NCBI GenBank assembly: GCA_018524725.1
Contig: JAEUWP010000206.1
Coordinates: forward strand, 1-47,461
Reading direction: 5' to 3'
From: Podaxis mareebaensis
Lineage: Eukaryota > Basidiomycota > Agaricomycetes > Agaricales > Agaricaceae
Length of the DNA: 47,461 nucleotides
Position 1 is the first letter of the stretch. Each line of letters starts with the position of its first letter. Shown one piece after another: positions 7,258-47,461 of the stretch. The notes under the pieces were generated by a model. The model was given only the letters and a program-made list of their open reading frames with translations, did no database searches and was not told where the DNA came from. Both the position numbers and the translations under genes were made by a program.

Positions 7258-9528
<2,271 letters not shown>

Positions 9529-12935: not shown

Positions 12936-13836
12936 AATCCTTGGTAAGCATCGGCTTCCGTTCAAGCAATACTTGACTGGACACTTGGTTATAGATGCCA
13001 TCCTGTCTGTGATTTTATGCCACTTCCGTATGTTGAAGAAACTACTTGTGAAACTTTCTCAGGGACAGAGCAAGCTATTAAATGGTCATAGCCTAACATG
13101 GCACCGAAGAATCCCACTGTAGGTTGGTGTCCCGAATTTTTCCTTCTCTGAACCTTTACTTTGGGAAAGCAGCGTCGATGACTAGCATGTGCTGGTAGTG
13201 TTGCCACTCGCACCCATAGTGAAAGCCTCGTGCCCACGCAGTATTCATGAGTAGGCCCGCGCTCCCGTCCTAATGAGCATTTACCTCGATTGACATGGAC
13301 AGATCTTGATGGCCATTCGAGTTCCACTGCTAGTCAGGGTGCAGGATCGTGAGGATGTGATTGATTGAGACCTTGCATCAATTTGAGAGGTTTGATTCAA
13401 CGTTGGGTACATTGTTAGTCCCCCCCCATTGCGGTAGGTGGGAACCCAGCCCCTTGTATTGCTGCCTATGTTTCCTTCGTTGTTTCCCCTTGTCCGTACA
13501 CATCCACTGATCTTATAATGCTATATTTAGTCACTCATAGAAGTTAGTGGAACACTACATCATACGTAAAACATTGGCATCTCTTATATACCCCCCTGGG
13601 GTTTGACATAAATATAAGCTACAGCACACGGGGTCGGGTGCTCAGTTCCTGGGAACAAATCTAAGGAATAACAGAAGCTACAGCCAAGTTCGTTTCACAT
13701 GCAATACTCGTTGATGAGCCAATGGTAAGGCTATTAATATCAATGCCATTTCTTATGCGCATCTTACTGTTCACTTTCCACTGCTGGGGCTTAGGGGCCT
13801 GACGTGTATAAAACTACCTGAAGCATTCCTTCTCAG

Positions 13837-14004
13837 ATGATGCTTTTTGACTACCTTCAACTGTCGTTTGCTGAGCAAGCTCTTGTCGAAAGGTATACTC
13901 ACCATGGCTCTTCACATTTCCAATGGACAACACTGATACACCTTATACGCCCACTGTTAATTCATCGCTGTTTTTACCCCAGATATTGTGATCCATCTTC
14001 ATGA
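13837..14004 (+). other. Tiny two-exon ORF conserved in both units (25 aa)
   Basis: Exon 13837-13892 plus 13983-14004 reads MMLFDYLQLSFAEQALVERY then CDPSS and a stop. The unit B counterpart (21279-21331 plus 21422-21443) reads MLFDSLQLLFVEQALIERYY then DPSS. Both keep GT and AG at the intron ends and a stop at the same codon. A TATA-like GTATAAAAC lies about 30 bp before the ATG, which is unusually close. It may be a real micro-gene, a relic, or chance. Confidence 0.25.
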
Positions 14005-14215
14005 CTGCGCAGCATTCTGTTTCACTACTCAAGAGCATCTGGTGCATTCTACCCCCCTGGGCTAGTCATAATGGAAGCCCGATTGACCAAGCGGCAAGCA
14101 CAAAGTTCCGACACTGACAATTAGCTATTTGGATATGCTCATATGTTACTGTCATCAGTCGCTGACATGGCTGATTTGAATTCCACGGCGCACGGCTATG
14201 ACTCGCACAGCACCT

Positions 14216-14221
14216 TATAAA
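14216..14221 (+). promoter_or_regulatory. TATA box of kinase 2A
   Basis: TATAAA lies 51 bp before the ATG at 14267; the same element is at 21651-21656 before kinase 2B. Confidence 0.55.
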
Positions 14222-14266
14222 TTGCCACCTCCAGTTCCCTCAGATCCCCCCAAGAAGCACATAACA

Positions 14267-15400
14267 ATGGGTAGCTTGTACATTCGACCGTCAGTCCTTG
14301 TTTTTCTGCCTGGCAGCCAAGAGCTTCAAGTACTGACAGTATGTCACTTAACGATTGTACCTTTCCAGTGCTATTGCCAGCCAAATTGTTCCACAGGCCC
14401 TTGAATACTTCGACCAATCGTTCCACTCGGAGGTCTTGAAAGGTCAAATCCCCCAAAGTAAGGTCGCCGTAAAAAAGGCGAAACAACGTGATCATGCTCA
14501 AGGCATCGGAACGCCACAAGTACGATCTTGCCAACACCCTTTATATTCATAACCATTGCTGAATGTTTATAGCTTGAACATGCTATGAAGCAGTGGGAAA
14601 GGGCCACCCATTCAAACGTCCTGCGGTTCCTCGGTCTTTGGAAGAGTCCACTTAGCCCTTTCCCAGTGCTCGTTACTTCGTTCCTCGAGTGGAATATAAT
14701 TGATTATGTTTCCGCAATGCCAGGTGCCAACAAATATAGCCTGGTATGTTGTGATCTCTTTATCTAGTACACTTCTTTATGCTCATGCCCCCTAACGATC
14801 CATTATCAGATCTTTCCTATTGCTCTTGCACTGGAGCACATGCACCAGCAGAACCCTCCCGTTCTCCACGGAAACATAAAGGGCGTAAGTGCTGTATTAG
14901 TTTACTTCATACCAATTCCTCATATAATGAAGTCCAATATCCTGGTCGATCGGACTGAGAAGGCTTACCTCACCGATATCGGAATCTACAAGGCGCTGTC
15001 TAATCCAGACCAAGTTGATCCCGAAGTCCGTTGGAAAGCACCAGAGATAGTACTGGATAACAAGCCACACAGCACCGCGTGTGACGTCTGGAGCTTTGCG
15101 ATGACGATATTAGAGGTCCTACTTCCTAACTAAAACCCTTTCTGGCCTTACAGCTTATATTCTTTCATGTAGGTTTACACTCAGGAACGACCATTCTGCG
15201 ACATACCCCTTGAAGCATCAATTGTCGTTCAAATGAAAAAGGTCCAAATAGTACCACGTCGACCCCCAAATGCCATTCCCGATGAAAGACTTTGGCGGCT
15301 ACTCCAACAATGCTGGAGTTATTCGCCCTCCGAGAGACCTGGGATGTCCAAGGTCGTTTCCCAACTTCGTAATCTGAGGGGACAGGCCTGGGTGCGTTAG
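14267..15400 (+). CDS. TKL-like pseudokinase gene 2A (HGN catalytic loop)
   Basis: Model: 14267-14289, 14369-14519, 14573-14743, 14810-14884, 14933-15115, 15173-15400; 276 aa, in frame throughout. Elements in order: short N-terminus, beta3 Lys (KVAVKKAKQ), candidate alpha-C Glu (AMKQWERATHSNVLRFLG), catalytic loop PPVLHGNIKG-SNILVD, YLTDIGIYKAL, RWKAPEIVL, CDVWSFAMTILE, PFCDIPLEAS, and C-lobe LLQQCWSYSPSERPGMSKVV. The C-lobe signature (CW-x5-RP) and NVLRFLG are typical of tyrosine-kinase-like families that are expanded in agaricomycetes. The catalytic Asp of HRD is replaced by Asn, and DFG is DIG. Lys and the DIG Asp are kept, so nucleotide binding is possible but phosphotransfer is doubtful. 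At 276 aa it is a bare kinase domain with a shortened N-lobe. It is paralogous to kinase 1, with intron positions shared from the alpha-C exon onward. Confidence 0.8.
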
Positions 15401-16244
15401 TATAAGCAAGGCATATTATGAATGAGGTAGATTTCCTCCAGCTTCAATACCGGGGTTTATGTAATCTAGATACCCAAATATACCTTCTTTGTTATCCAAA
15501 TCGAGACCCGTGTTAGTGTTGGCTCCTCAGGACTGGAAAGGAGCAAACGACAGCTCAAACGTGTACTTGGACCTATAAATAGGCGGACCACTTGAAGAAT
15601 TTGCTATCACCAAAGGCATCCAGAAAAGGAAAGAAAGCTTTGATGCTTCCTACCTATCGAATTTGAGGGCAGCTTTCTTTGGCCCGTGTTCTTAGAAATG
15701 TGGGGTGGGTGCTTCCAGGATATAACTCAGGCTGTAGTTGGACGTTCACCAAATGTTAGAAACCTTTGGAATTGCCGGGACTGAGCTCAGCCTAAGGTGC
15801 CCGATCCCTGGTGTCAAGCTTATCCCCTGGTTCTCTATCAGGAGACCGAACACCTGTGGCAGTGAAAATGTGCCAGTATCGTGTCGTGGCTAGGCGCTTT
15901 CCGTGCATAGAACTTCACAAAGACTTCTCGGCGAGGACCCCAGACTAGCGGGCGTATGTGGCTGTTGCATCCAGAGGTTTTGGATGCACTTAATGAATTT
16001 ATGATCCGGCTTGCCTAGATATCGCGGAAAGAATGATTTGGGGGTGTTGTCAAGAATAATGTTTATTGTCGAGATGAATCGCTTCCAGGTGAACTAGCCG
16101 CATCCGAGGGTGCGGGCAGGCAGGGAAATCCAACCGAGGTCTCGTGTGTGGTAGATGACGACATGTGGCTACTGGTTAAGCGCCGGTGCAGGCTGTCATG
16201 CGACTCCGCCCGGCCAGTCGTTCGAAACCCCAGCAAGTCCACTC
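15401..16244. other. No gene seen; 3' flank of kinase 2A
   Basis: No credible ORF is present. The stretch is partly alignable to 22836-23497. It ends at the 3' end of the truncated minus-strand gene fragment. Confidence 0.5.
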
Positions 16245-16390
16245 CTACTTGCTCGTCTCATCTCCCCTCGCTTTCCTAAAAACAACCGACAAGGCCTTGA
16301 CATTCTCCACAACCTCCGGCCACGCAGTCCGATGTAGTACCACACTCGCCTCCGTCGACCCCTTAGGCTCCCCCAAAAACGTTGCATGTA
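16245..16390 (-). pseudogene. Truncated 3' exon of the small minus-strand gene
   Basis: On the minus strand the sequence encodes HATFLGEPKGSTEASVVLHR, then TAWPEVVENVKALSVVFRKA, RGDETSK and a stop. This is near-identical to the last exon of the intact gene at 23498-24107. Homology stops at the duplication junction (16391), so the start and first exon are missing. The reading frame now continues upstream into antisense synthetase sequence, giving a 64-codon chimeric ORF (16245-16439). Confidence 0.85.
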
Positions 16391-16391
16391 T

Positions 16392-16764
16392 GAGGTTCGA
16401 AGAGCAGGTAGAATCGACCATATACGTGTTTCTGCGCATGTGTACTGACCACCGTATCCAATAGGTGAGGCAAAAGGAACAAGGTGACGACGAGGCTCAG
16501 GGCATCGACGAGACCTTTATCGATGCTCTTGAACATGCTCTGCCGCCAACTGGTGGCTGGGGTATCGGTATCTATCGTCTGGTTATGTTCTTGACAGACT
16601 CAATGAGTAATTTCTTCCCTTCTGCTTTTTATCGCGCCCACTGATTTGTGATATTTTAGACATCAAGGCGGTGTTGTTGTTCCCTGCTATGAAGCCTATT
16701 GAGAACCCACCACCCCCTCCTGCTGTTCCCGACGGTCATCCTCTTCCACCATCAGGCCAGATCT
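16392..16764 (+). pseudogene. 3' fragment of lysyl-tRNA synthetase
   Basis: The fragment starts inside exon 6 (RFEEQ) and repeats exons 7 and 8 with their introns to the stop codon. It has no start and no upstream exons. Replacements relative to the intact gene hit the catalytic core: the motif 3 Asp is Tyr (GIGIYRL instead of GIGIDRL) and NIKEVLLF has become NIKAVLLF, consistent with lost constraint. Confidence 0.9.
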
Positions 16765-18607
16765 AAGTATGTTAACTTACACCTCATAGAGATGATAATT
16801 GCTTTGCTCGGTCAGTAACGCTGGATGTATATCCCGTATCGAAAAATTAAGCTTCTGCGTCTAACTCAACCTAAGTTCACTCGGAACGGGGAAGTTGGAG
16901 TCTGCTGTCAACCCTTTGGGCTCAACACCAGCTCTCTGGGCTCAACACCAGCTTCCTGAGTTTGAAACGAGGTCAAACATGAGGACGCATCAGTGCCAAA
17001 ACTATCCAAGTCTTTAAGTTACGAACTACCTTGGAGGGGAAACGACCCGGTGTTGCTGCTGGTAATGAAATCACCTTAAGCTCCGCCGTCTTTCTTTGGG
17101 GTTTAGAGCGGCCCCCAGGTACGTAGGATTAGCATCTATCATCGCAACAAGCCGGTCCCGCGGGTCTATTTTTTGCTTGATAGTTATAAGGAGCAAGGAC
17201 GTCACCACTAAAACCCAACATGGAAAGATTAGCAAAAGAATGAGGCCCAACATGCCTGTGTTCATACTTAGTTTATGGGCTCCGCCGGCCCAGAAATGAA
17301 ATGAGACATCGAAGAATGGAGGTCTTTCAGGCGGCTCCATTCTGTGTTTTAGATTTGATCCACGTTGCATTAAGTTTCGGAGCGCAGGTGATAGAGCATC
17401 GTCCAGGTATCTACCATCAGCACATCGCGTCCGTTCATATGCTACACGGAAACCAGATAAAACGGAAGGTTGAGAAGCATTCTATACAGCTACCGCAAAG
17501 AATGTGTATATTCTATCTCTCTAACAGTTTACTCTAAATTGCTTAACAAACGTCGAGGATGTTCCCGACGAGGAGTGGACAAAATAGTAATGAATCAAGA
17601 TAAATGCCGTTGAAGGGGCGGTAAGAACCAAAAGACTACCGTACGCTTTCGGCCCACCGGGTGTGCAGAGTTTAGTTTGCACTGCAAACTACCTTCCGTG
17701 GCCGTCCTACGTCATGATGCTTCGTTGCGAAGATGTGGCCAAGTTGTCAGGGGTTATTACCGTTATTCGCACATCTTGCACAAATATGGACTCATGGGCG
17801 CATGTTAGATTAGTGAATGTGCCTGTAGAGTAGAGCGGCAACAGAAGGCAAATACCCTTCTTACTGGCCTGAGATTACTATCTTATTGTATTACTTCTGA
17901 TATTAAACTTTTTTACCACATCATGATCAACCCTGACAAAGAGAACGGGGTGACCTCGGTGGTCGGGGAGCGGCGCAAGATCATATGGATGTCAGCGTGA
18001 ATGAAGCCCGTGGCCCATATCCCCATGAGGTAGAATCTTGCCATATACATACATGGGTGTCGGAATTGGGCCAGCACGCATGTAGGATGGTGGGCGGGAT
18101 GGAAATCCCGAGATTCTTGTCACTGGAAGCTCCATATGGGGACTCAAGAGTTTCGTTACCTACGAAAGATTGTCCTTGTGTTTTCCCATTTTCCTCATCG
18201 CGTCGTACCCCATACCTCGGTTCCGGAAAGCAGTGCTTAAAAATAGATGTAATGAAGCAATCAATGATAGCACTTTATGTGTTCAGATAACAAGTGCATG
18301 TCATACCAATACAGGGGGTGCGTTGAGTCAAGGCAAGGAAGGTGGATTAAATGATGGAAGCCGATAAGAGTGCATGCTAACGTTAATATATCTGGAACAC
18401 TTTTGCATTATTGACGTAGGCCACAAAAGCCTCGAAACGGAGGCGTACTCCGGCACAGCCGGGGGTTCCAAGGCCTCTAAATGAAATGGCGATGGATGCA
18501 ACGCTTGACATGATCCTACCTGAGGGATAGAAGAGGTATATAAGGAGAGAACTTTATCATTTCCCCTCCTTTTCTACCAAGAACTTGAAGAGCAGTGTGA
18601 TCGAACC
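16765..18607. other. Non-coding stretch upstream of kinase 1B
   Basis: Counterpart of 9529-11254, diverged by substitutions and indels, with no credible gene. A TATA box (TATATAAGG, 18537-18545) precedes kinase 1B. Confidence 0.55.
18537..18545 (+). promoter_or_regulatory. TATA box of kinase 1B
   Basis: TATATAAGG lies 63-71 bp before the ATG at 18608 and is conserved with the 1A promoter. Confidence 0.6.
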
Positions 18608-19683
18608 ATGTGTAAACCGTCGCGTGCCCGTTCGCCACTGTCCGCCTCCTACCACCTTCCCCTCCATGCAACTGGGCAGCTTTCTAATCAAGAGCTCCGG
18701 TGGTTTGGCATGTCGCCTCATTCAGATGTCGCCAGGGCACGACTCGATCAGTATTACGTCTCTGTGAAGCGGTTTAGGTCCCACGGAGATTTCAATAATG
18801 ACAAAGTAGGCTGACTAGCGGTTACCTCAACGCCATTACTCTTTTAACAAATGTTTGCAGCTTGGACATGCATTGCGGAAGTGGAGAGAAGTGGCCTCTC
18901 ATCCCAATATCCAGCACTTTATAGGTCTCCTGGATAATACACAAGGAGTCCTTCCAATGCTTGTCGTCGTACATTTAAATTGGAACTTAATGGAATACCT
19001 CAACATACTACCACAGGCCGATAAATATGTTGTGGTGCGTCGTCTATGTTTTGTTAAGTTCACTTATTGTGATCATCAACAACAGGCCTACTGTGTCGCC
19101 TCTGCGCTGGAATATATGCATTGTCAAGACCCTCCCGTCCTTCACGGAAATGTGAGAGCAGTAAGCGTTTATATTGTTTGACCTGCCCTACCAAGGTCTC
19201 AACCTACAATAGTCTAACGTCTTGATCGACGACAACGGTGGTGTTTATCTTTCCGACATCGGGATCCACGAGGCGATATATAGTAAAGATCGACCCAGGT
19301 ACGGGATACGTTGGAGGGCACCAGAAAAGGTCCTCCATGGCGGACCTCATACCACCGCTTGTGATGTCTGGGGTTTTGCGATGACAGTTCTGGAGGTTCG
19401 GCGTTAATCCATTGGTTCCAGTGCCTGTTAATTCAGTGTGAAATTACAGATGTATGCTAGAGCTCACCCATTCGAGAATTATCCTCACGAAGCGACTGTT
19501 GTCCTTGCAATGGGGCAAGGAGAGATACCACGTCGTCCGCAGAACAGCACACAACTTGACGATGGTCTCTGGGTAATGCTCACACACTGCTGGAATTATT
19601 CGCCACCTCAGAGGCCGACAATGTCAACGATATTGCCCTGGATACGTTTACTGAAGGAGATCAATCGGGTGGTCAACCAGTGA
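18608..19683 (+). CDS. TKL-like pseudokinase gene 1B (intact copy, HGN catalytic loop)
   Basis: Model: 18608-18805, 18861-19034, 19086-19160, 19213-19395, 19450-19683; 287 aa, all joins in frame. Kinase elements: YVSVKRFR (beta3 Lys), LRKWREVASHPNIQHFIGLL (candidate alpha-C Glu and following strand), CVASALEYMHCQDPPVLHGN, SNVLIDDNGGVYLSDIGIHE, RWRAPEKVL, CDVWGFAMTVLE, HPFENYPHEATVVLAMGQ and LTHCWNYSPPQRPTM. The N-terminal ~50 residues are Ser/Pro/His-rich with no glycine loop. The HRD Asp is Asn, as in the three other copies. Unlike 1A, exon 5 is open to its stop. The intron 19035-19085 is 51 nt and also open, so retention would add 17 residues. A regulatory (scaffold) role is inference. Confidence 0.8.
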
Positions 19684-20294
19684 CACGGACAGAAGCCATA
19701 AAAGTTCGCTCAAGCTCCTTCAACCAAAACAATAGTATAAAGCCAACCGATATGACAGCCTGGCAAGGAGGAAGTCTCGTTCCGTGCCCTTATATTGCTT
19801 TAACACCTGTTCGATCTGTAGACTCAGCTCCTACCACTTGTAATAGACTCGCTTTCATTGCCAGGCGGAGGCACTACGAGAGAAAAATAGACTCCGGCAT
19901 CCATGGAGCCTTTGATTGACAGGATGCCCATAGATTACTGCGGGACTTCCCAGCCGTTCCTCCGTGTGCAAGGTGGTTCCACAACTTGTCGTTTCATGAA
20001 CCCTGCGTCCCGTAAGGCCCATATGTCAGCGTAGCTTTACCAACTAAGTTGGTAGGGAACCCCTTGATTTTCCTGGGCCAGCATTCCATAGAATTGACAT
20101 AGATCAATGACTGTTGTTTTATCGCCTATCAAAAATTTAAGCGCGGAAACTTCAAAGTTAGAACTCCTGATCTCATTGGCAATTTGATGACTGGAGGCAA
20201 ACCGAGGTTGCCTCCGAACCATTATTGTACTTAGACTTGAATCACCCAGCTGTCTCGCCCCGCAACACACCAAATGGGCACCGGTCGCTGTCTA

Positions 20295-20365
20295 TTTTGG
20301 AATCAAGAGTAGCTATTACCTTATGGTGAAACGGGGCGATACCCGTCGACCAGGACCACAAGCCA
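20295..20365 (+). pseudogene. Kinase exon relic, unit B copy
   Basis: Matches the relic at 12860-12935 (AAGAGTAGCT, GGGGCGATACCCGTCGACCA) and, more distantly, kinase 1 exon 5. No open frame remains. Confidence 0.5.
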
Positions 20366-21278
20366 ATGTTGGTCCTCAGTGGGCGTCAGTCTCTGTCTGG
20401 GCAGCACTTGACTGAGCACTCGGTTATAGATGCCATCCTATTTCTAACTTTACACTAGTTCCATGCGTTGGAGAAACTACTTGTGAAGCCTTGAAAGATC
20501 TTGATCTTCTCAGGGGGTGGAGTGGGCTGTTTAATGGCCATGGCCTGACATGCCGCCGAAGAAACCCGCTGTAGGCCGGTGCACAAATTCTTTCTTCTCG
20601 GCACCCTTACTCTGGGAAAGCGGTGTCAATGGCTGGCATACGCTGATAGCGTTACCACTTGCGCCCTTAAGTGAAAGCCTCATGCCCATGAAGTATTCGT
20701 GAGTAGGCTCTGGGTCCCGTCCTAATGAGTTTTACCTCAGTTGACCCAGATGAAAGCAGACAGATCTTGATGGCTATTCGAGTTCCGCCGCTATTCAGAG
20801 TGTCGAGGCGTGAGGATGTGGTTGATTGGGACCTTACATCATTTCGAGAAGTTTGATTTAGCACTGGGCACACCGCCAGTCCCCCCTCATTGCGGTAGGT
20901 CGGAACCCTGCCCCCTCGTATTGTTGTCTACGTTTCCTTGGTCGTCTCCCCTCGTCTGCACACACCCATTAGCACTTTAGACGAGCTAGCGGAACACTAC
21001 ATTATACATGGAACATTGGCATCTCTCATATAGCCCTCTGGGGTTTGGCACGATGCGAGCTCTGCCACGTGTGGGTTGGGTGCTCAGTTCCAGAGAGCAA
21101 CTCTAAGAAATAACAGCAACTACAGCCAAGTTTGTTTCACATGCGACGCTCGTTTATGAGCCAGTGTTGACGCTATCAATAATGCTATTTTTTATGCGCA
21201 TCTTGCTGTTCACTGCTCATCGCTGGGGCTTAGACGCCGGACGTGTATAAAACTACCTGAAACATTCCTTCTCAGACG

Positions 21279-21443
21279 ATGCTTTTTGATTCTCTTCAAC
21301 TGTTGTTTGTTGAGCAAGCTCTTATAGAAAGGTATGCTCGCCGTGACCCTTCTCATTTCCAGTAGACGACATTGATACACCTGGTATGTCCACTGTTCAT
21401 TCGCCGCTGCTTTTGCTCCAGATATTATGATCCATCTTCGTAA
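21279..21443 (+). other. Tiny two-exon ORF, unit B copy (24 aa)
   Basis: Exons 21279-21331 and 21422-21443 read MLFDSLQLLFVEQALIERYY then DPSS and a stop. The frame and splice ends match the copy at 13837-14004. Confidence 0.25.
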
Positions 21444-21650
21444 CTGCGCAGCGTCCTGTTTCACCAGTCAAGAGCATCTGATACGCACTACCCCTGGGGT
21501 TAGTTGTAATGGAAGCCAAATCGACAAGGCGGCAACACAAAATCCCGGCACCGATAATTAGCTATTTGCATATGCTCATATGTTACTGTCAAGTCGTTGG
21601 CATGATTGATGTTGAATTCACGGCGCATAGCTATGACTCCCGTAGCACCT

Positions 21651-21656
21651 TATAAA
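21651..21656 (+). promoter_or_regulatory. TATA box of kinase 2B
   Basis: TATAAA lies 57 bp before the ATG at 21708, matching the element before kinase 2A. Confidence 0.5.
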
Positions 21657-21707
21657 CTGTCCCCTCCAATCTCCTCAGATTTCCCCAAGCCCAAGCAGCG
21701 CATGACA

Positions 21708-22835
21708 ATGGGTAGCCTGTACACTCGACTGTCAGTCTCTCTTTTTTTCCCCTGGTATTCAAGAGGTTCAATTGCTGACAGCGTGCCACTTAACAACTGT
21801 ACCTTTTCGTCATTGATATTGCCAGCCAAATCGTTCCAGGGGCCCTTGAATACTTCGGTGGATCATCCCACTCGGAGGTCTTGAAAGGCCAAACCTCCCA
21901 AGGCAACATTGCCGTCAAAAAGGTGATACCGTGTAGCCATTCTCAACACATTGGAACACCGCAAGTACGATCTTCCGACACCCTTTATGTTCATGAGTGT
22001 CGCTGAATGTTTATAGCTTGAACGCATGATGAAGCAGTGGGAAAGGGCTACCCCACATGCAAATGTTCTGCGGTTCCATGGTCTTTGGAATGGTCCACTT
22101 AGCCCCTTCCCTATGCTCGTTACTCCATTCCACGAAGACATAATGGATTATGTCCGTGTAATGCCAAATGCCAATAAATACGACCTGGTACGTTGTGGTC
22201 TTCCTACCCAGCACGCTGCTTCAACCTGACGGTACATTATAAGGTCTCTCCTGTCGCTAGTGCACTAGCGTACATGCACACGCGGAACCCTCCCATTCTC
22301 CACGGAAACATAAAAGGCGTACGTGCTACGTTGGTTTGTTTCATGCCAACTCCTCACATAATGAAGTCCAATATCCTTGTCGATCAGACTGGGAAGGTTT
22401 ATCTCTCCGATATCGGAGTTTACAAGGCTCTGTCCATGCCGGACCAGTCAGACCGCGAAGTCCGTTGGAAGGCACCAGAGATGGTACTGGAAAACAAGCC
22501 GCACAGCACCGCATGCGACGTCTGGAGCTTTGCAATGACCGTATTAGAGGTTCTATTCCCTAACTAAAATCCTTTTCTTGCCTTATAGCTTACATTCTTT
22601 CGTGTAGGTTTACACTCAGAAACACCCATTCTACGACATACCCCACGAAGCATCAATTCCCCTTGCCATGAGAGGGGGGCAAATACCGCAGCGACCTTCA
22701 AAAGCCATTATTCCCGACGAAGGTCTTTGGCGGCTACTCCAGCAGTGTTGGAGCTACTCGCCCCCCGAAAGACCTGAGATGTCCAAGGTCGTCTCCCAGC
22801 TTTGTGCTCTGAAGGGACAGACCCGGGTACGTTAG
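21708..22835 (+). CDS. TKL-like pseudokinase gene 2B (HGN catalytic loop)
   Basis: Model: 21708-21730, 21826-21964, 22017-22187, 22244-22318, 22367-22549, 22608-22835; 272 aa in frame. The elements match 2A: NIAVKK (beta3 Lys), MMKQWERATPHANVLRFHGL, PPILHGNIKG-SNILVD, YLSDIGVYKAL, RWKAPEMVL, CDVWSFAMTVLE, HPFYDIPHEAS and LLQQCWSYSPPERPEMSKVV. The acceptor used by 2A for exon 2 (CTTTCCAG) is mutated here (CTTTTCGT). The next AG downstream (21824-21825) restores the frame with four residues lost. An alternative ATG at 21702 is in frame. The catalytic Asp is Asn, as in all paralogues. Confidence 0.75.
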
Positions 22836-23497
22836 CACAAGCAACACTTACTACGAATGAGGTAGATTTTCGATACCCCGACGTATATGCCCTAGATACT
22901 CAAACTGAATCTTTTCTATTATCCGAAGCTTAACGCTTGACATTGTCTCCTTAAGCTCGAAAGCGGAAAGTGCCGGCTCGAACATAGACTGGTCCTGTAA
23001 ATAGGCGAACCTCTTGAAGAATTGGCTATTCTCAGGGGCACACAGGAAGAAAGAACGGGTTTGCTGCTCATGATACCTCTGGTCCGTTGAGAATGTAGGG
23101 GCAATGTCAGAGAGGTTTCGGATGTACGAACCTGCCCAATTGTTTCCTGCGCCGTTGAAACAGGGGTTTATATGGTGTGTTTATGGGCATGTATGATTGT
23201 TGCATCCGAGGCTGTGGATACTTCAATCATGCATTTAAAATAGATATCGCGAAAGAACGATTTAGGGTGCTGTCAAAGAATGGGGAAGGATAACCATTGT
23301 TGCCGGCATGAATCGCTTCCAAGGTGAGCTAGCCAAATCAGAGGGTCCAACGCAGGCGAACAGGAAATCCGAAACGTGGTCTGGTATGTCGTAGCTGAAC
23401 AGTGGCCGATGACAAGCGACTATCTAGTGGCCATTATTAAAGCGTCTGTCACGTGACACGGCCCAATCAGTCGTCCGAATCCCCAGCAAGCTCACTC
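22836..23497. other. No gene seen; 3' flanks of kinase 2B and of the minus-strand small gene
   Basis: No credible ORF; partly alignable to 15401-16244. Confidence 0.5.
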
Positions 23498-24107
23498 CTA
23501 CTTGCTCGTCTCATCTCCCCTCGCTTTCCTAAAAACGACCGACAAGGCCTTGACATTCTCTACAACCTCCGGCCACGCAGTCCGATGTAATATCACACTC
23601 GCCTCCGTCGACCCCCTAGGCTCCCTCAAAAACGTCGCATGTATCTCCATCGTTGGCGGGATCACTCGTATCTTCTCGCCATTGGCCGTTCCGTTCGCTG
23701 GAACCTTGAGTTTGTCGTCTTCGGATTCAAATATCGATCTGAACAGGGTTTCTGCTTCCTGTAAATCAGGGTATCAACAGTCCGTCGGTATACAAACATA
23801 AGAGATATCAGAGGATAACACGCACACCATAGCTCATACTCGCCAAACTCTGTCTTCCAAACGCCATGCTCTGACTACTCCAGAACCCGGTCCTACTCAC
23901 GCGTATTTGTGGAGGCGTATACAAGGACCGGAAGTACTCTTGGATGCCGTTGAACAACTGTGATATTTCGGATTTTCCTGGTATGTTGGGTTGAGCGGAT
24001 CTGGCGGACTGCGATGATGCGGGTTGCTGAGGGGCTTGTGTGTGGTGACACATGCAGTGGCATGCCGTGGTGTGATGGTAATTCGCTTGTGACCCAGGAG
24101 CAGACAT
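23498..24107 (-). CDS. Small conserved hypothetical protein (intact copy)
   Basis: Model: complement of 23901-24107 and 23498-23758; 155 aa. I do not recognise the family. The N-terminus is His/Cys-rich (HHTTACHCMCHHTQ), followed by a Gln/Ser-rich stretch. Then come a probable helix (ISQLFNGIQEYFRSLYTPP, continuing into EAETLFRSIFESEDDKLKV after the intron) and a compact C-terminus (MEIHATFLREPRGSTEASVI, TAWPEVVENVKALSVVF). The intron is 142 nt, long for this window, so an unrecognised extra exon is possible. The right breakpoint of the tandem duplication lies inside its last exon (at 23644), which gives an independent truncated copy at 16245-16390. Confidence 0.6.
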
Positions 24108-37396: not shown

Positions 37397-39574
37397 TCAA
37401 TACTCAGTCTTCTCAGGATCGTCAAATCCCTCAACAGGAACATTCCACTTCCACCTGCCCTCCAAGAACCCCTTTGCGGTATCTTCCAACACGATCTCAT
37501 TCCTCTTCTGTACGTATACCGTCTTGTCTGTCACCTTCTGACGTAGTGTCGGGATGTTCTCTGGCTCGATAGGGCCTTCGAGTAATTCAGATAGGTCCTC
37601 GACCGCTTTCTCCAAATCCCTTAACACACGCAATCAGTCAGTGAATCCTATTCCAACTTACCATCGAACGTACCTCTGGTTGTCCTCAAAGAGATCCTTC
37701 TCGTTGCCCTTCGCCAGGTAATAAGCCATGGCATAAGTCCATTTAAGCGTCATACGACACCGCTCAACTTCCTCCACTGCCTTCTTCATAAATTGTACCT
37801 GTGACGCAAGTTCTTTAATTTGCGGAGCGCACTTAAGCGGGGATGACTACACACCTCGATCCAGGTAAGGGAAGACGTTATTTGCATGTCTTCCATCTTC
37901 TTCTCAGTCTTGGCGTAGAGGTCCAGCGAGAGTTTAGCGGATTGCTCGTGATTAGCCCAGCGGTTGTAGTACTACGCAGGAGGGGGATGGTAAGAGTGGC
38001 GGATAAGGGTGACAGGAGGACGTACGTGTAGATAACGCTCAAGTGACGCACGACTCCGGCTCTGAGCATCGCGAGCATCCACACCGGCCTTCTCATCGTA
38101 TCGGTTACAAGAGTACCAGGCCGTACCGTGTTCACTCCAAGGACCCATACAGACCCAACAAAATTCATGTTTACACTTCTTGCACGTCATATGGCTAACA
38201 GAAGCGTCAGATTACAATTCTCAACAGAAGACGCGTCTCGACGTACTTGCATCCACCGTTTTTCTCAATCGTACTCTGACACTGACTGCATTCCTTGGTG
38301 TTACTCTTGATCCAGTTCGCAGTCTCGCTGTCATCCCGACACTTCTTCAACCACATCCTTGCCACGCTACACACCACCGGCCGATGATCAGCCTCGATGT
38401 TGCACCCGAAGCAGAACTTGTGTTCCTTCCCAGCCAAACCCCAGCCGCTCTGACTCTGGCTCTGCGTCATCTGGTCACCAATACCACGCGCGCCACACGA
38501 GACCGTCGGGACCACAGTTGTAAGACTTGACTTGTCCGCTGCAGAGGGACAAGACACAGTGTTCGTACAACCAGGATAAGGGCAGAACTTGAGCCTCTTG
38601 TTTGAGGCGACGTAGTGACGGACGATGAGTTCCTGGAAGTGTGACCAGGCCTTCCTGTTATCCTCTTCCTGTACTGGATCTGTTACTGGAACGCCAGGTG
38701 AAGGGACGAGGACTGCACGAATAAAAGGATCGGGGCACACGAGTGCGCAACCCTCTGCCATGCACTTGACCGAATGTTCTCCCTCATCCCGAATCTTGGA
38801 CACGAGGTATGCATTCCAGCAAGCCGAGCAGAAAGTATGTTCGCAATCCAGCGCAAGGGTTCGGAGATCAGGGGAGTCATCAAAACAAATGGGGCAGACG
38901 AAAGGCTCGTCAGATTTGGGTTTGAAAGACCTAGGGGTGTAATGCGAGATTGGGGGTGACGTAGTGGGTGACTTGGTCTTGGAGCCACCGAGCGCTAAGA
39001 GTCTGGAGGCACCACGTGCGGAACGGCGACTAGCGGAAGAGCTGTCAATTGATCGCGTGCGGGATTGGGGTGAAGTAGCAGTCGGCTCGGGCACGGTGAC
39101 ACCCGCGGCGACAAGTAGCGACGTGGGGTTATCCATGTATTTCTCGACAAGTCGCTCTTTGTTCCATTTCATATGCCGGAGGAGCATGCTGGCGACGCTT
39201 TCCTGTGTGGCGCACGTAGCATCGCAAGCACGGAGAGGATGAATAGCAGAATACGACTTACATCAACCCCGCAAACGCTGCAAATATAATCCACGTCTTC
39301 TTTTATGAGCCTCTCCACAGCACTCTGACTCAGGGACTCATAGTCGACCTCGTACGCCTTGCGCTTGCCTTTGGGCACGACCTTGAAGTCGTCCCCTCCA
39401 TAGACATCCATATCCATATCATCCTCGGAGTGCCCGGATACTGGTGGGCGGGGTAAGGCCGCGAAGAAGGCAAGGAAGGGTAGGAGACTCACAATCATCC
39501 TGGGTGCCGTCTAGCATCTCCTCATCGTCGTAGTAATCGGCATCGTCGTCTGAGTAGTCGTAGTCTGAGGACAT
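37397..39574 (-). CDS. Ariadne-type RBR E3 ubiquitin-protein ligase
   Basis: Model: complement of 39493-39574, 39262-39440, 38247-39202, 38026-38194, 37855-37971, 37674-37798, 37397-37619; 616 aa, in frame. Domains: acidic Asp/Tyr/Glu-rich N-terminus ([20 protein letters not shown]), UBA-like segment ([20 protein letters not shown]), a Ser-rich insert, RING1 from about residue 190 ([20 protein letters not shown]), IBR ([13 protein letters not shown] ... EHKFCFGC), RING2 with catalytic Cys405 ([20 protein letters not shown]), and a helical Ariadne domain ([40 protein letters not shown]). RBR ligases take ubiquitin from an E2 onto the RING2 Cys, and the Ariadne domain autoinhibits until neddylated cullins bind. 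The Ser-rich linkers (before RING1 and inside the IBR region) lengthen it relative to the ~500-560 aa usual for the family. It shares a 347-bp divergent promoter with prefoldin subunit 4. Confidence 0.93.
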
Positions 39575-39921
39575 TGATGTGTACGTGAGTTGTTTGGGGT
39601 GTAGATCGATGTGGTTGAGTGTCTCTAGCGTGTTTGGTCAGACGTCGAGATCGCTCACCCGGCACCTCTTAAGCGTCCCCACCGACCCACGTGACCCTAA
39701 TGAGTGGCGATACACCTCCCCTGCTCCCCGTCTCTCTCCCGCCTCGGCCCATGACTCACGCTGTGCGCGTGTGCCGTAGTCATCACTGTCACCCCCCGTC
39801 CTGGGTCGACGCTGCGTCGTCTGCGCTGTTGGCCTGAGCTGTGAAGTCCTTTCGCAAAGGTGTCATGTGATCACGTAATCGCTTCATCGCCAATATCACT
39901 TCCTGCATCCTCACCACCAAG
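39575..39921. promoter_or_regulatory. Bidirectional promoter region (Ariadne ligase / prefoldin subunit 4)
   Basis: 347 bp separate the two divergent start codons. The stretch is GC- and pyrimidine-rich with no clear TATA box, as is common for housekeeping fungal genes. Confidence 0.5.
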
Positions 39922-40522
39922 ATGAATAACATGCGCATGGTAGGTCGCTTTTCCCTGCGGTATACTGCACGACACACACCACCATCAGCTAGAGCACAAC
40001 GAGGAGGATGACACTGCCGAGGTGACCTGGGGTGCGTTTCCAGACCATCTGTCTGTCTCGTGTCAGTCTGACCATGGTTCAGAGGACCAGCAACGAATCA
40101 ACACGTTCTCGAAGCTGAACACGCGGGTCAGGGCATTGGAAGCGAAACTTGAGGATATCAAAGTGGGTGCCTCGCACAATATGCATGTCTTTGCGCTGAG
40201 TTACCGGCACAGCAACAGAAAGAGGCTCTTGATGATCTATCAACTGAACTCGAACTTGCTGACGAGGACGAGCCCGTGCTGTAACTATTCATTCCGTAAC
40301 ATTTCCTCAGCGTCTCAAGACTCTTCCAGGTACAAAATTGGCGAGACATTCTTGCATCTGCCCCTCCCAAAAGCGCTCAAACGACTGGAGCGCGATCAGA
40401 AAGATGTAGACGAACGCTTCATAAAGGTGGCTGGGGAAGTGGAAGATATTGAAACCAAGATGAAGGAGCTAAAGGTCGTTCTGTATGCAAAGTTTGGCAA
40501 GGCCATTAATCTTGAGGAGTAG
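39922..40522 (+). CDS. GIM3: Prefoldin subunit 4
   Basis: Model: 39922-39939, 39989-40031, 40083-40162, 40213-40280, 40330-40522; 133 aa, all in frame. Subunit of the hexameric prefoldin (GimC) co-chaperone that delivers nascent actin and tubulin to the TRiC/CCT chaperonin. Two long coiled-coil helices flank a beta-hairpin: INTFSKLNTRVRALEAKLED, then LSTELELADEDEPVLYKIGE and TFLHLPLPKALKRLERDQKD, then the second helix VEDIETKMKELKVVLYAKFG and a terminal KAINLEE. Length and motifs match Pfdn4 (beta-type subunit). The first exon is only 18 nt and contains three Met codons (39922, 39931, 39937), any of which could start translation. Confidence 0.9.
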
Positions 40523-41638
40523 ACAGGTATCTTGATGTCCACTGCGCACAGTAGGAACTCACTGATGGTATGTGGAATAGGCAGGTGTATCTATCTTATG
40601 TGCATTACTGCGCAATTCCACCGTCACTAATTCACGCATGATGCATGATATATGAGTGTTCGCCGCTCACCCATCAGACCTATCAAGCAGAAGGAAGACA
40701 GACAAAACATCACTCAAGACGCGCTCTGAAGCTGTCAACTCGAACTTAATTCTTCACGCGTTGTTCGGCTACTCTCCGAGTCTCTCGTCGTCAAAAGCTT
40801 CCAATATCGCTCTCAGACCTCTATGTCCGGAAATACAAGGCGTGGCTATTAAACTTCGTGATAAAGAGATGATTGGACCTTCCATTGATGCAGGCACACA
40901 AGACTGTTTTGGCACAAAACCATCAATCCTTCTGAGCGTCGACTTTCGAACAAGTGTAAACTAGCCGCATCCCATCCGCCCCCTTATTTTTTTCGCAAAT
41001 TCTTGATCAAAACATCACCTCAACGATCCCGTGTTATACAACTTAGAACACGCAAGCCACGCCAACTGTTACAAGGCAATCGACGAGAGCTTATCCCTCA
41101 AATGTCCAGAACGTACCCAGTAGCATCCGACAGTTCTTATGACCCGAGCCAGTGACTGCCTACGTGATTTATGAATGTCTTTACGGCGCATGGGCAGTGC
41201 CTGGAAGCATACAAGAAGCTCCGGGGTCCACGGGCTATGTATACACCACACCTACAAATATCTACTCAGCGAAGGCAGCACGACATAGGCGCTCGAACGA
41301 TACCTGGTGACTCAGCCTCTCAGTAACAGTGGTCCGAGTTTGACGAGGAAGATTGCAAACATGGTTGTAGCTAACCCATGGATTCGATTGAAGGGAAAGA
41401 GTACCTGTCCAATAGTTTGCTGTGTATCTTATTAAACAATCTGTCACGTATCACATAAGGTAAGTATAATTAGTTGTACCTCATTTCTACTGTGTGCTGT
41501 ACCCGCCCTTATATCTAAATTGGGGCGTGTTTGGAACCAAATACATTTGGCACCTATCTGGGTATTGGCGCCTATATCTCCTTCTAACAGGAAGATCTTG
41601 GGCGAAACCCCACCAAAGAAACAAGAGGGACGTCCTAT
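40523..41638. other. Intergenic with first copy of a ~300-bp direct repeat
   Basis: 40523-41100 shows no gene. 41103-41404 is the left copy of the direct repeat described separately. 41405-41638 is the 5' flank of the NYN-myosin gene; no TATA box was assigned there. Confidence 0.5.
41103..41404 (+). repeat. Direct repeat R1, left of the NYN-myosin gene
   Basis: Strongly similar along its length to 45600-45904: shared blocks include CTACGTGATTTATGAATGTC, AGGCGCTCGA and GAGGAAGATTGCAAACATGG. It carries a TATA-like box (CTATGTATACACC) and ends with a candidate start-codon exon (41361-41400) followed by GT. Its exon reading frame is shifted by one base relative to R2. Confidence 0.85.
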
Positions 41639-44600
41639 ATGCAACGAGAACAACGAGAGCAGGGTGTCGCTGTGTTCTGGGATTTCGGTAAGTTCACCCG
41701 GAGTTCTGCTCACCTCTGTAATTCTGACAACTGCGGTTAACCAGAGACCGCTCGGGTCAAATCCCTAGTTTCTGGCTACCAAGTGGCCAAGGGTTTGCGA
41801 GATGTCGCCAACGCTTTTGGCCTCGTAAAGTCCATTCGGGCGTACCTGGATGTGGCGAACCAGACTCATCCCAAGTTTCCTTCCCTGCGGAGGGAACTGC
41901 ATGCATCTGGCATCACGATCGTAGATTGCCCAACCTTCTCCGGAAAAGACATCGCCGACAAAGCAATGATAGGTACGTTCATACGTTCATACGTTCATAC
42001 GTGCATCCCAGAGGTGGTGCCTAACTAGAGAAATTCACAGTGGATATGCTTACACTGGCAATGGATGAGACCTCTCCCCGCACCATTATTGTCGCCACTG
42101 GAGACCGCGATTTATCCTACGCGCTCGCTGTCTTACGACTTCGAAGATTCAAAATTGTCCTCGTTTGCCCTTCCGATGCCTATGAAAGCTTGCTCATGCA
42201 GGCCGATGACAATGTCAACTGGAACAGCCAGGTCCTCGGTCTCGACGAAAACAATGACCCATCGGGCTCCTCTTCGTCCACCTTCTCTTCCTCTTCTACT
42301 AGTACTTCCGAATCATCCGCCCTCTCGTATACCACGCCTTCCCCTCCCAATCATGGTATACACAGATCGACCGAACCCGAGGCCGGTTCCGCCAAAGCTC
42401 AAATCCCCAGATCCCCGGCCTGCGCTTCTCATCAGACCACCGGCTCAGAGAGCCGGGTCCCACGAGCTGAGAAGGGTTGGCCTAGAGAGGACCATGGAGA
42501 TGATATCAATGAAATGGAGACATTGTCCGCAGTTTCTCCTCTGAATTCTCCCCGGATAGCCACAGTCAAAGGACTTTCTAATGAAGGCCCAGTCGTTACA
42601 GTAAATGGGCTTGCCGAAGGCAATGTCTCTACACTTTCCGCAGGGTCAACTTCGGGAGCAGAGCACCAGGTGACCAACCCAAGATCAAGGACTCGCGCTG
42701 GAACACAATCTACTGCCGCTGCCACTGGTAGTGGACCGAAACGTGCTGGACTTGCCACGATCAAGATCCAAACTTGGTGGCGCGGTATTCAAGTGCGGAG
42801 GCTCGCGGAAAATATCCGGCGCGAGGAGGCTGTGAGGAGGCTGCAGACCGCCATCCGAGCGCACACTGAACGGAAGAGATTCCTCGATATCCGACGAGGT
42901 GTCACCCTGGTGCAGAGCAGTATATGGTGTCTCTCAATGCTGTAAACTTCTCCTTGACAATTGGTCATAGGGATCCGTGGTATGCAAGCCCGTCACCGTT
43001 TCGTTCACGAAAGGAAGTACCAAGCTGCAACATTACTGCAAAGCCTGTTCCGTGGAATGTAAGGATTATAACATATTTCACGTCTTGCATTAGCTCATTC
43101 TTCCATCTAGGGCCTGTCATCGTTCTTACCGATCTGACGTTCGCCATGTCATCTACCTACAATCTTGCATCCGACGCCGTTATGCTCGCCGCGAGCTGGA
43201 AGCTCTCATGGAGGAAGCTCGCACCCTCTCCAAGTACCAAGAGATTTCCTACGAATTGGAGAACAAGGCGGTCGAGCTCACACAGTCCTTGCGAAAACGG
43301 TCAGAGGAGGAAAAGCAAGCCGAGGCACAACTTGTCGAGCTCAAGCAACAGACGCAGCAATGGATTAACAGGCATGAAGAATCTGACGCCCGTCTGAAGC
43401 AAGCGCTGGCGAGATTGCAAACTGCCGAGGCAGAAGTAGCACGCAAAGAGGAGTTGCTCCAAGCCAAACTTGAGGTCAAAAAGAAGCTAGAAGAAGTCAC
43501 TACGCAGTTGGCAGAGAAGGAGGAAATCATCTTGAAGTTGACGGACGAGATTTCGCGGCAGACAACTCAGATTGAGGCTCAACGGACGGCCTCGGAGGCC
43601 TCCCCCGTTCGGACACACGAGGATAGTTCGGTCATCGCGACGCTCAAGAACGAGGTCAGCAGTTTACGCGAGCAACTCAATCGCGCGAACGCTCTCAACG
43701 CACTCACGAGGGGCTCGAGAGCTGACCAACCATCATTATCCCCAACCTTCGCTCCTACGTTGCGCATAGCAGACCCCAATGGCACCACCGCAAATGGAAA
43801 TGCAGCGGAAAACAACCGACACCAGCATAGGCACAGTTCTGCTGGAGTGTTCGGCTTGGTACCTCAAGAGAACCGCACATCAACTGACGAAATCATGATT
43901 GACGTCAGGAAGCTACAGGCTACGAATCCTCGCGCCGTTTCCGTTGCCTTTAACGGCGAGGATAACTTCATGCTTTTCCGTGGCGCCGATGGTCTTCCTG
44001 GAATTCGGGACTATGAGGATCCTGCTGAGGAGAAGATCAGACTAATGATGGATGCAAAGAAGTTGGACAAGGACATCCTGGATGGCTTGATTCGTGGATT
44101 GAAGATTCCTTTGCCAAGCTTGATGAATCCTTCAGCTGTCAAGGAAATCCTGTTCCCGGCAAACCTTATCAACATTGTGGCGAACGAGATGTGGAAATAT
44201 GGCTTAATTGCAGAGAGTGAGCGCTTCCTCGCCAATGTCATGCAGACTATCCAAGCACACGTGATGGTATGTCTAATAGCTTCAGTCAAGTCGGATCCGT
44301 TATTCATCCCGCTCTAGTCCTTCCAAGGCGAAGACGCTATCATCCCTGGGATCTTCTGGCTCTCTAATGTCCATGAGTTGCTTTCGTTCATTTGTGTTGC
44401 GGAGAGTGATATGCTCCAGGGCATCGGACCAGGCGAAGAGAACGCTGTCCGACCGTTCGACTGGGCTGATTACGAGCGCTCAGTGTCTGTTGTCAAACAC
44501 GATCTCGACAGCCTGGAATACAACATTTATCACACCTGGATGCTAGAGACGAAGAAGAAATTATCGAAGATGGTCATTCCCGCTTTAATCGAGAGCCAAT

Positions 44601-45436
44601 CGTTACCCGGCTTCACGACAAGCGACGGTGGAGGACGACTGTTCAATCGTCTCCTGGACGCGAACAGCCAGTCAGCGTACAGCATGGATGATATCCTGAA
44701 CCTACTTAACAAGGTTTGGAAGAGTCTGAAGAGTTATTATATGGAGGAGTCTGTGGTGCAGCAGGTCGTTACGGAACTACTCAAGCTGATTGGTGTTACG
44801 AGTTTCAACGACCTCCTTATGCGACAAAATTTCTCATCATGGAAGCGAGGTACGTCTAATACTCTTCCCCGTTGACATTACTGAAATGTGTACTTAGCTA
44901 TGCAAATTCAGTACAACATCACAAGGATAGAGGAATGGTGCAAGGCACACGACATGCCGGAGGGAACACTACAGTTGGAACACTTGATGCAGGCTACCAA
45001 GCTCCTGCAGCTCAAGAAGGTTTGTCCTCGCTTGCGGGAGTCTCGAAATTGAATCACTGATCTATCGTCTACTCCAGGCTACACCCGCTGACATTGAAAT
45101 TATCTATGATGTGTGTTGGATGCTGAACCCAATGCAAATCCAGAGGATGTGTACCAACTACTATGTCGCAGATTACGAGGTAAGAATTACGTCTGAGAAT
45201 TGAAACAGAAACACTGATAGTGTGAACAGAATCCGATCTCGCCAGAAATCCTTCGAGTTGTGGCATCACGAGTCCAAGCTAACGACCGTAATGATCACCT
45301 TCTACTGTCACCGGAGACAAAAGAAGTAGGACCCTACGAACTACCGCTACCTCGGGATGTCTCAGGTTTGGAGACCTACGTCCCTGCATACCTTAATGTT
45401 TCGCATCTAAGGCGCCTGGCTGCCCTTGTTTTATGA
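41639..45436 (+). CDS. NYN nuclease domain fused to class V myosin neck-tail (no motor)
   Basis: Model: 41639-41687, 41745-41972, 42041-42919, 42971-43058, 43111-44266, 44318-44849, 44898-45019, 45078-45179, 45230-45436; 1120 aa, all joins in frame, no internal stop. Residues 9-155 form a MARF1-type NYN domain with the expected acidic residues (VAVFWDFE D15, KDIADKAMIVDM D85/D88, IIVATGDRDLSYA D114/D116). A Ser/Thr-rich linker (155-330) follows. From about residue 332, IQ motifs begin inside the same exon (IKIQTWWRGIQVRR, LQTAIRAHTERKRF, VQSRIRGMQARHRF, LLQSLFRGM, LQSCIRRRYARREL). A coiled coil follows (about 448-570, SYELENKAVELTQSL), and then the globular DIL/cargo-binding tail to the end (about 690-1120; IPGIFWLSNVHELLSFI, SYYMEESVVQQVVTELLKLI, NYYVADYENPIS). 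NYN domains cleave or bind RNA; myosin V tails bind cargo adaptors. The ~780-residue motor is absent. An assembly join cannot be excluded, but the reading frame is perfect. Confidence 0.85.
41975..42006 (+). repeat. Octamer tandem repeat in intron 2 of the NYN-myosin gene
   Basis: ACGTTCAT is repeated three times, followed by a fourth imperfect unit (ACGTGCAT), immediately downstream of the donor site. A small microsatellite with no effect on the coding frame. Confidence 0.85.
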
Positions 45437-45599
45437 CAAGCTGCATAACCTCCTGTTGTATCCATTTCCCCTTATCCCTCGTATTGCACGGTCCTTTGTT
45501 TGGTTCACGAATGGAAATTGGCTAAATTCTCGTTTAGTTCTTGTCCCTACTTTTTGACTACGGCCAGTATACCTCGCATTGTTGGATTGTGTAACCTTA

Positions 45600-45904
45600 C
45601 CAGAAAGTTCGTGAACGCACCAGTAGCGTCCGGCAGTTCTTGTGGCCCGAGCCACTGCCTACGTGATTTATGAATGTCCTTACGGCGCATAGGCGGTGCC
45701 TGGAAGCACGCAAGAAGCTCCGGTGTCCACGAGCTATATATACGCCACACCCACGAATCTCTACTCAGCGAAGGCAACACGACATAGGCGCTCGAGCGAT
45801 ACCTGGTAACTCAGCCTCTCAGTAACAGCGGTCCGAGTTTGACGAGGAAGATTGCAAACATGGTCATAGCTAACCCACTCGATTCATTGAAAGAAAAAGA
45901 GTGC
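45600..45904 (+). repeat. Direct repeat R2, right of the NYN-myosin gene
   Basis: Partner of 41103-41404, same orientation. It contains a TATA-like CTATATATACGCC near 45734 and a candidate first coding exon (45860-45900: MVIANPLDSLKEK) directly followed by a GTGCGT donor-like site. No downstream exon could be recognised, so this may be the promoter and first exon of a gene whose body is lost or outside recognition. Confidence 0.85.
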
Positions 45905-46662
45905 GTACTACCCTAAGACCTGTCTAGACTATTATCGTCTATACAAAGCTTGCTGTGACCAGATGCTGTTCAAGCTCTACACGTGCATGATCAGTTGACA
46001 AAACAGAAACTTCTATGGTGCGGGACACCTAAACACCGCTACTTTTGTGCAAACGAAAAAAGAAATTCAAATTTTAATATATTTCTTAGTTCTCTGGTAA
46101 AATAGCTTCTTTTGCTTGTCTGAACAAATTGTCCAGAGGAATTTTTTTCGGTCAAGAATTGATGGAGCTCTTGTTTCGGATCCGCCTCACAATGGCCAGC
46201 CTACATGCACATGTTCCAAATATGGTAACCATTTCTAAATCTGGAACAATCTTATCTTATCCACTAATCTAATATTCTGGCAGTGTTCTCAAGAACACGT
46301 CGATGGGACTTGTACTTGCAGGAAGTGAATGCCCGAACATGTAACTGTGCATTGCATGTGGAAAGACCACCTTGGTATGCATACAGCCATGGAAAAAACA
46401 GTTCTGCCATTTCCAAATGAGTAGAGTATCAACCGAGGCAAGTGCAAGGGGCATGTTCTCTTCATCCGTACTCAGTGAGTTCTCGTGCTCACTGATGTGC
46501 CTAAACTTTCGAGCATGGGCTGCTGAATTCACTCACCAAGTCTTTTGGTGGCCCACTATGTACAGGAGGTTCTGTGAAGATTGTGGTATTCTATATGTCT
46601 GTGTGTTCATCTGATCCTTGTAGCTGAACTTTCAATGAATCACACCAAACCTGGTTGCGACG

Positions 46663-47461
46663 ATTATTTATTTTTATTTTATTTATTTTCAGATCTGCAT
46701 CCCTGCTGAGATGGCCACTGCACAAATGTAGTGGTGTCTAGGTGTCCTGCACCATATGCTCTTGTCATCTAAAAAAGTACAACTTCTAATTGATGAACAT
46801 GTACTTACTGGGCTGTAATTTGCATGGTTCTTGCCATTGTCTGTGAGTAGATTGAACCTTAGTGCACTATTCACACACAGCCAGTTATCATTTCTCTAGT
46901 GCTTAGCATGTATAAAAATTGATGACAGAGGCACACAAGGATTCCAAAGGAATGCCATCCTTGAGTGCAATGTCACATCACACTGTGGACATCCCCACAT
47001 AACAGACAACTATGAACCTTTCTCCTGCTATCTCCCATTATGACAGTAACCCAATCCAGAATTTTAACTCCCAGAGGTCCCTGGTGAGTAGTTCAGATCT
47101 TTCCCAAGGAACAAAATTGCCATGAGACTATATACCCTGCATCACCCTTGCTGACAAGGGGATACCACTTGAAGAGACCTGTGTATGTTGGCTCTGGTCC
47201 TCCTCCTATTGCTCCAGCTCACTCATGCTTGACTGATAGGCAAGATATACCCCCTACATGTGCCCTTGACCCTTTGACCATGTCTTTCATTGAGTTAGTA
47301 ACCCATGATTAAACTTGTTTTTCATAAACTGCCTTCATCCTAGTGAGTGTCCCCATGTTACAAGGTTTCTTCTTTGGCTAAGCAATGCCTAAGTCAGAGC
47401 CTATCCTTGTAAGAGAGACAAGCAGAGGTCCTAGTCCTATACAGGTCAGTAGGAGCTGCTC
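46663..47461. other. CpG-free block, probable methylated and decayed transposon
   Basis: I read every line from 46663 to the end of the window and found no CG dinucleotide in 799 bp, while TG and CA are frequent. CpG is common in the rest of the window. In basidiomycetes, cytosine methylation acts at CpG and is concentrated on transposons, and deamination converts CpG to TpG/CpA. No residual protein could be read, so the element type is unknown. Confidence 0.6.

Follow-up and report, generated by a model that had tools for sequence, protein, structure and literature searches.

Closest described systems

Fungal class V myosins of the Myo2 type contain IQ motifs, a coiled coil and a globular tail, and so does a chimeric gene of Podaxis mareebaensis (41639..45436, + strand, in the window, the whole stretch of 47,461 nucleotides that was analysed). 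The fusion differs from these myosins in lacking the motor domain and the first IQ motif (IQ1), in possessing an N-terminal NYN domain, and in having a coil that is apparently unconstrained; the nearest named protein is myosin 5 of Leucocoprinus birnbaumii (P0001, 83% identical over 70% of the fusion query). Afadin and the fungal DIL-ankyrin proteins likewise carry a DIL domain without a motor, but in the fusion the entire neck, coil and globular tail domain (GTD) derive recently from myosin V.

Young chimeric genes made by duplication are known as jingwei-type genes. As in these, the parents of the Podaxis fusion are present and the sequence appears constrained after fusion; unlike these, the fusion was copied as DNA with its introns and is flanked by a direct duplication, and its pair of source genes and its domain order were not found in the sources searched.

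The MARF1/NYN (PIN-like) endoribonucleases (structures 6FDL and 5YAA) share the NYN domain with the fusion, which matches 6FDL with an E value of 9e-6. The NYN domain of human MARF1 is an endoribonuclease with active-site residues Asp358, Asp426, Asp427 and Asp452 (PMC6294520). The fusion has counterparts of three of the four active-site aspartates of MARF1, but no RRM or LOTUS domain was found in it by Pfam, the fourth aspartate is replaced by lysine, and a myosin tail takes the place of the C terminus.

Gene structure and domain organization

Splicing, translation and Pfam matches confirm the chimeric fusion gene of P. mareebaensis. Its nine exons (41639-41687, 41745-41972, 42041-42919, 42971-43058, 43111-44266, 44318-44849, 44898-45019, 45078-45179 and 45230-45436) all have GT..AG borders and run in frame from ATG to TGA with zero internal stops, giving 1120 amino acids, in agreement with a preliminary description of this DNA. 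That description had also assigned NYN and IQ sequence to one unbroken exon, and correctly so: exon 42041-42919 (879 bp) encodes the latter half of the NYN domain together with the first IQ motifs.

The domain order from N to C terminus is NYN, low-complexity linker, IQ motifs, coiled coil and globular tail (DIL). Pfam places the NYN domain (PF01936) at residues 10-148 (E 9e-17, positions 2-139 of the 145 in the profile) and the DIL domain (PF01843) at residues 949-1049 (E 1e-31), both above cut-off, whereas the motor domain (PF00063) is absent from the fusion protein by the same search; the description of the gene as an NYN domain joined to a motor-less myosin V tail is thus upheld. A single stretch of IQ sequence exceeds the Pfam cut-off (PF00612, residues 331-346, E 6e-8), and approximately five of the six IQ motifs can be recognized by eye in an alignment with the myosin V gene of contig C87 of the same genome, IQ1 being absent; one invariant arginine of the IQ region is altered (R418H). 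The GTD matches the yeast Myo2 GTD structures 6EYW and 2F6H (E 6e-93). RRM and LOTUS domains were detected neither in the fusion nor in its NYN parent on contig C96 (Pfam, E 0.1). The sole remnant of the motor is a 50-bp stretch (42704-42753) from its loop-2 region, and the earlier statement that the motor and about one IQ motif are missing holds.

Parental genes

The parents were sought in the genome of the window itself (G000, 36.95 Mb in 429 contigs). Both survive there and match the fusion with their shared introns included, and the gene is therefore a product of duplication and fusion at the DNA level, as the preliminary description had maintained of the fusion itself. The NYN-derived segment (41560..42706, + strand) comprises 79 bp of 5' flank, exons 1 and 2, and part of exon 3, and is 86% identical to C96:55659-56785, with both introns in common; the parent on C96 encodes 637 amino acids. 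The loop-2 fragment (42704..42753, + strand) is in frame and 96% identical to C87:46503-46552 over its 50 bases. The main myosin V-derived segment (42754..45600, + strand), encoding the IQ motifs, coiled coil and globular tail and followed by 164 bp of 3' flank, is 92.4% identical to C87 over 2849 bp, with six introns in common. A retrotransposed origin from mRNA is excluded by the retention of the introns of both parents.

Motor-domain matches occur on five contigs of the genome and DIL matches on three, including that of the window; C87 bears both, and its translated matches extend over residues 1-1614 of P0001, interrupted by introns only. The separate full-length myosin V for which the preliminary description had suggested looking is thus present. 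The nearest named relative of the tail is from L. birnbaumii and that of the NYN domain from Leucoagaricus sp. SymC.cos.

The differences between the fusion and its parents also bear on the possibility that reads from the NYN and myosin V loci were misjoined in assembly. Only one assembly is available, and its contig ends 1559 bases beyond the downstream flanking repeat (R2, below), two points in favour of such an error. Each half of the gene, however, has diverged from its parent, the exons by 7% (myosin) and 12% (NYN) and the introns by 9-12%, the flanking repeats match neither parent, and repeats that are just 88.5% alike should not confuse an assembler. An artefact is therefore very improbable.

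Two further observations concern related genes. The parental NYN gene is one of three or more NYN genes in series (L016, C96:55738-62500), the other members sharing 31-43% identity with it. Another DIL-domain match lies at C150:43766-43936, with no motor among the matches listed on that contig.

Junctions, flanking repeats and surroundings

The preliminary description recognized the chimera but missed the direct repeats on either side of it, the NYN gene that is one of its parents, and an internal deletion. Junction 1 (42704..42706, + strand) is a 3-bp overlap (CAC) of the C96 and C87 segments. At Junction 2 (42753..42754, + strand), 554 bp of C87 are missing, consisting of 504 coding bases (168 codons, in frame) and one 50-bp intron; the residues lost comprise the last part of the motor together with IQ1, and the C87 sequences flanking this junction have no clear overlap. 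Both parental reading frames are preserved across both joins.

The gene lies between two copies of a direct repeat, R1 upstream (41109..41402, 294 bp) and R2 downstream (45613..45902, 290 bp), which differ by 26 substitutions in 288 aligned bases (9.0%) and eight gap columns. A search of the genome found no copy of this unit beyond these two and no match to it at either parental locus. Approximately 12 bp of unassigned sequence lie between R2 and the end of the myosin segment. On the other side, R1 is followed by a copy of a dispersed repeat of about 110 bp (41450..41558), which ends where NYN homology starts and has at least six more copies (on C173, C343, C280 and C52, and two on C107) at 79-84% identity. 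Because just 79 bp upstream of the ATG derive from the NYN gene, the fusion is probably under a new promoter, and R1, which contains a TATA-like stretch recognized by eye, may be its source.

By eye, a palindrome is present close to one end of the dispersed repeat. Transitions between R1 and R2 at CpG sites number 7 versus 0, CpG being lost in R1 (small numbers), with no such bias in the gene. The upstream neighbour (39944-40522) appears to encode a prefoldin subunit (PF01920, E 5e-11), and a long open reading frame at 7810-9126 resembles a lysyl-tRNA synthetase, as judged by eye. The window also contains a large tandem duplication (9153-23644), the main pieces of which are 79-91% identical (9153-10273/16391-17565, 10544-12404/17915-19756, 12868-15434/20303-22869 and 16193-16391/23446-23644). 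RNA families were not found at gathering threshold in 39000-47461.

Age of the parts and proposed route of formation

The noncoding sequences of the fusion have diverged from those of its parents by 29/310 substitutions (9.35%) in the myosin introns and 11/159 (6.9%) in the myosin 3' flank, relative to C87, and by 13/108 (12.0%) in the NYN introns and 10/79 (12.7%) in the NYN 5' flank, relative to C96. With numbers this small, the noncoding divergence of the NYN half and that of the myosin half do not differ significantly (p 0.14), nor does the divergence of R1 from R2 differ from that of the myosin introns (p 1.0) or of the NYN noncoding sequence (p 0.28). Synonymous divergence (dS) amounts to 0.21 in the tail and 0.28 in the NYN portion (p 0.15). 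The matching divergence of the repeats (9.0%) and of the myosin introns is as expected from one template-switching event; parts of similar age are what a single event would leave, but several events close in time would also fit.

Template-switching mechanisms include those named MMBIR and FoSTeS. By a similar route, a replication or repair event would have copied the 5' portion of an NYN ribonuclease-type gene along with the 3' portion of myosin V, joined them in frame while skipping the remainder of the motor, and inserted the fusion at a 290-bp target sequence that became duplicated on either side of it; both the single event and its MMBIR/FoSTeS-like mechanism are inferred. The product would consist of two kept modules, an NYN domain at one end and the globular tail of myosin V at the other, with the neck and coil reduced to little more than a spacer. 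Duplication and fusion by one template-switching-like event, yielding a protein that docks an NYN nuclease by means of the tail, is on balance the favoured account of the gene.

Decay of a silenced repeat by RIP or methylation was considered and rejected, as transitions in the gene have no directional bias. From C87 to the fusion they are symmetric, with 32 CpG losses and 30 gains, and 55 changes in each direction at other sites; from C96 to the fusion, the corresponding counts are 18 and 14, and 34 in each direction.

Evidence on selection in the myosin tail

Polarised with P0001 as outgroup, 39 of the 41 polarisable amino-acid changes in the tail fall on the fusion and two on C87 (another 12 are ambiguous and seven lie at gaps). 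The tail of the fusion is thus clearly relaxed relative to that of the working myosin V, and it therefore no longer serves the old role under the old constraint. Such rapid change would also suit a recent non-functional duplicate, in which an accidental fusion has yet to acquire a disabling mutation.

The borders of the tail regions were set by eye ahead of counting. Nonsynonymous differences from C87 are heterogeneous among regions (14 in the neck, 25 in the coil, 10.5 in the linker and 17 in the GTD, p 3e-5), and synonymous differences are not (p 0.22). If half of the synonymous differences, which are unpolarised, and all of the nonsynonymous differences are assigned to the fusion, omega on the fusion branch is 0.29 for the GTD, 0.40 for the linker, 0.82 for the neck and 2.2 for the coil. 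Under this assumed split, neither the neck (p 0.65) nor the coil (p 0.18) departs from neutrality, again as a non-functional duplicate would have it, but the GTD does so (17:26 nonsynonymous to synonymous, one-sided p 1e-4), as does the tail as a whole (approximately 62:52, p 0.002).

Polarised changes alone give no significant difference between the GTD (14/370) and the remainder of the tail (25/420; Fisher p 0.19), a result that also favours the non-functional duplicate; the case for regional constraint therefore depends on the full counts together with the columns that are invariant among 57 class V myosins (C87 plus the 56 highest-ranked of 62 search hits). The fusion breaks 5 of 189 such columns in the GTD, where 14.8 breaks would be expected without constraint if about 62 changes were distributed uniformly (p 0.003); outside the GTD it breaks 5 of 62, where 4.9 would be expected. 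In a leave-one-out control, C87 breaks 0/251 columns and P0001 1/273, compared with 10/251 for the fusion; among the 56 database proteins the middle one breaks one column and six break 6 to 21, so that the fusion is within the range of these proteins, some of which are distant or perhaps misannotated. The low nonsynonymous rate of the GTD might instead reflect gene conversion by C87, but this idea is not supported, as dS is not lowered there (0.24 versus 0.21 for the whole tail). Under the stated assumptions, the GTD looks constrained, and the neck and coil look nearly neutral.

Selection on the fused product had previously been argued from the open frame and the intact splice sites. The conclusion is supported by the rates relative to both parents, but the argument is weak when taken alone: chance would have produced approximately three stops in the tail and 1.4 in the NYN portion, and the probability of none is 0.045 for the 85 changes of the tail and 0.24 for the 57 of the NYN portion. 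This lack of stops is by itself not decisive against a non-functional duplicate. Relative to the parents, there are seven indels in 656 aligned noncoding bases, whereas 3312 aligned exon bases contain one 3-bp gap and two 1-bp gaps that lie 9 bases apart and cancel, leaving zero uncompensated frameshifts. Together with the intact splice sites, the region-specific constraint in the full counts and invariant GTD columns, and an NYN domain that changes about as slowly as that of the parent (below), this makes a non-functional duplicate quite unlikely.

Apparent constraint on the NYN domain

In the NYN domain, five polarised changes fall on the fusion and four on the C96 parent, with six ambiguous, and in the NYN linker the counts are six, zero and 11; polarisation is rough here because the outgroup, P0066, is distant (66% identical over 28% of the C96 protein). 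Pairwise dN/dS is 0.16 for the domain (0.25 when transition bias is allowed for) and 0.53 for the linker, and assigning every nonsynonymous difference to the fusion leaves the departure of the NYN portion from neutrality at only p 0.07. Under the stated assumptions the domain looks constrained, evolving about as slowly in the fusion as in the parent. In the acidic metal-binding cluster, residues D15, D88 and D114 of the fusion align with Asp358, Asp426 and Asp452 of MARF1, and the position of Asp427 is occupied by Lys89, as it is by lysine in the C96 parent and P0066.

In both yeast and mammals, myosin V tails have a dominant-negative effect when overexpressed. The fusion might similarly be a natural dominant negative, its motor-less tail competing with the C87 myosin V for cargo adaptors while the NYN domain remains passive. 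Within the tail, constraint is strongest in the GTD, and a full-length myosin V is available as the target of competition, both of which accord with this proposal. It leaves unexplained, however, the low dN/dS of the NYN domain, the near-equal numbers of changes in fusion and parent, and the retention of three of the four MARF1 active-site aspartates; moreover, a major transporter could probably not be inhibited all the time without cost. A dominant negative is accordingly rated unlikely, and docking of the NYN domain through the GTD is the most economical reading. Openly licensed PMC literature includes plant myosin tail-expression work (PMC4033215, PMC3203191 and PMC4199776) and gave no match for the Myo2 globular tail as a dominant negative.

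Other NYN-myosin proteins

From about 5.8 billion clusters, the candidates of 616-1960 amino acids that had most words in common with the query were scored, 7995 in one protein search and 7985 in the other. The whole protein as query retrieved 62 proteins, of which 61 align over 69-73% of the query, each with a precomputed motor domain, and the other is a weak IQ-only match. Residues 1-313 as query retrieved three proteins with NYN as the sole listed domain. Among candidates of this size range, which shorter or unannotated proteins would escape, there was no second NYN-IQ-DIL protein, and in these protein searches the fusion was seen in no second species. Among the openly licensed PMC papers listed, none describes an NYN-myosin protein in its title or the start of its abstract. 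The preliminary description knew of no protein with this domain order, and none was found in the sources searched.

Possible role and significance

The fusion is a young, traceable chimeric gene that is probably functional. Its likeliest role, rated at slightly less than even odds, would be to dock an RNA-cleaving domain where myosin V adaptors are displayed, on membranes or on ribonucleoprotein cargo, with no transport of its own; the account of the gene's origin is the firmer of the two. Delivery to myosin V cargo adaptors and dominant-negative action had both been proposed in the preliminary description. A fuller and rather doubtful proposal is that the tail serves as a stationary address tag, by which an NYN ribonuclease is put on secretory vesicles or mRNPs with myosin V adaptors and cuts RNA at the site of delivery, and that the gene arose from one replication accident that duplicated its own landing site. 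If the address-tag reading is true, the fusion would be a new kind of localised RNA nuclease.

Because the parents, the joins and the landing site are all readable in one genome, the locus affords a base-by-base view of the birth of a multi-domain gene. The fusion is also old enough for selection to be read domain by domain, the ends appearing to be kept and the middle released. If it is functional, the myosin V tail, once separated from its motor, would be reusable as a docking tag, and P. mareebaensis would provide a natural test of competition between a tail-only protein and the resident myosin V.
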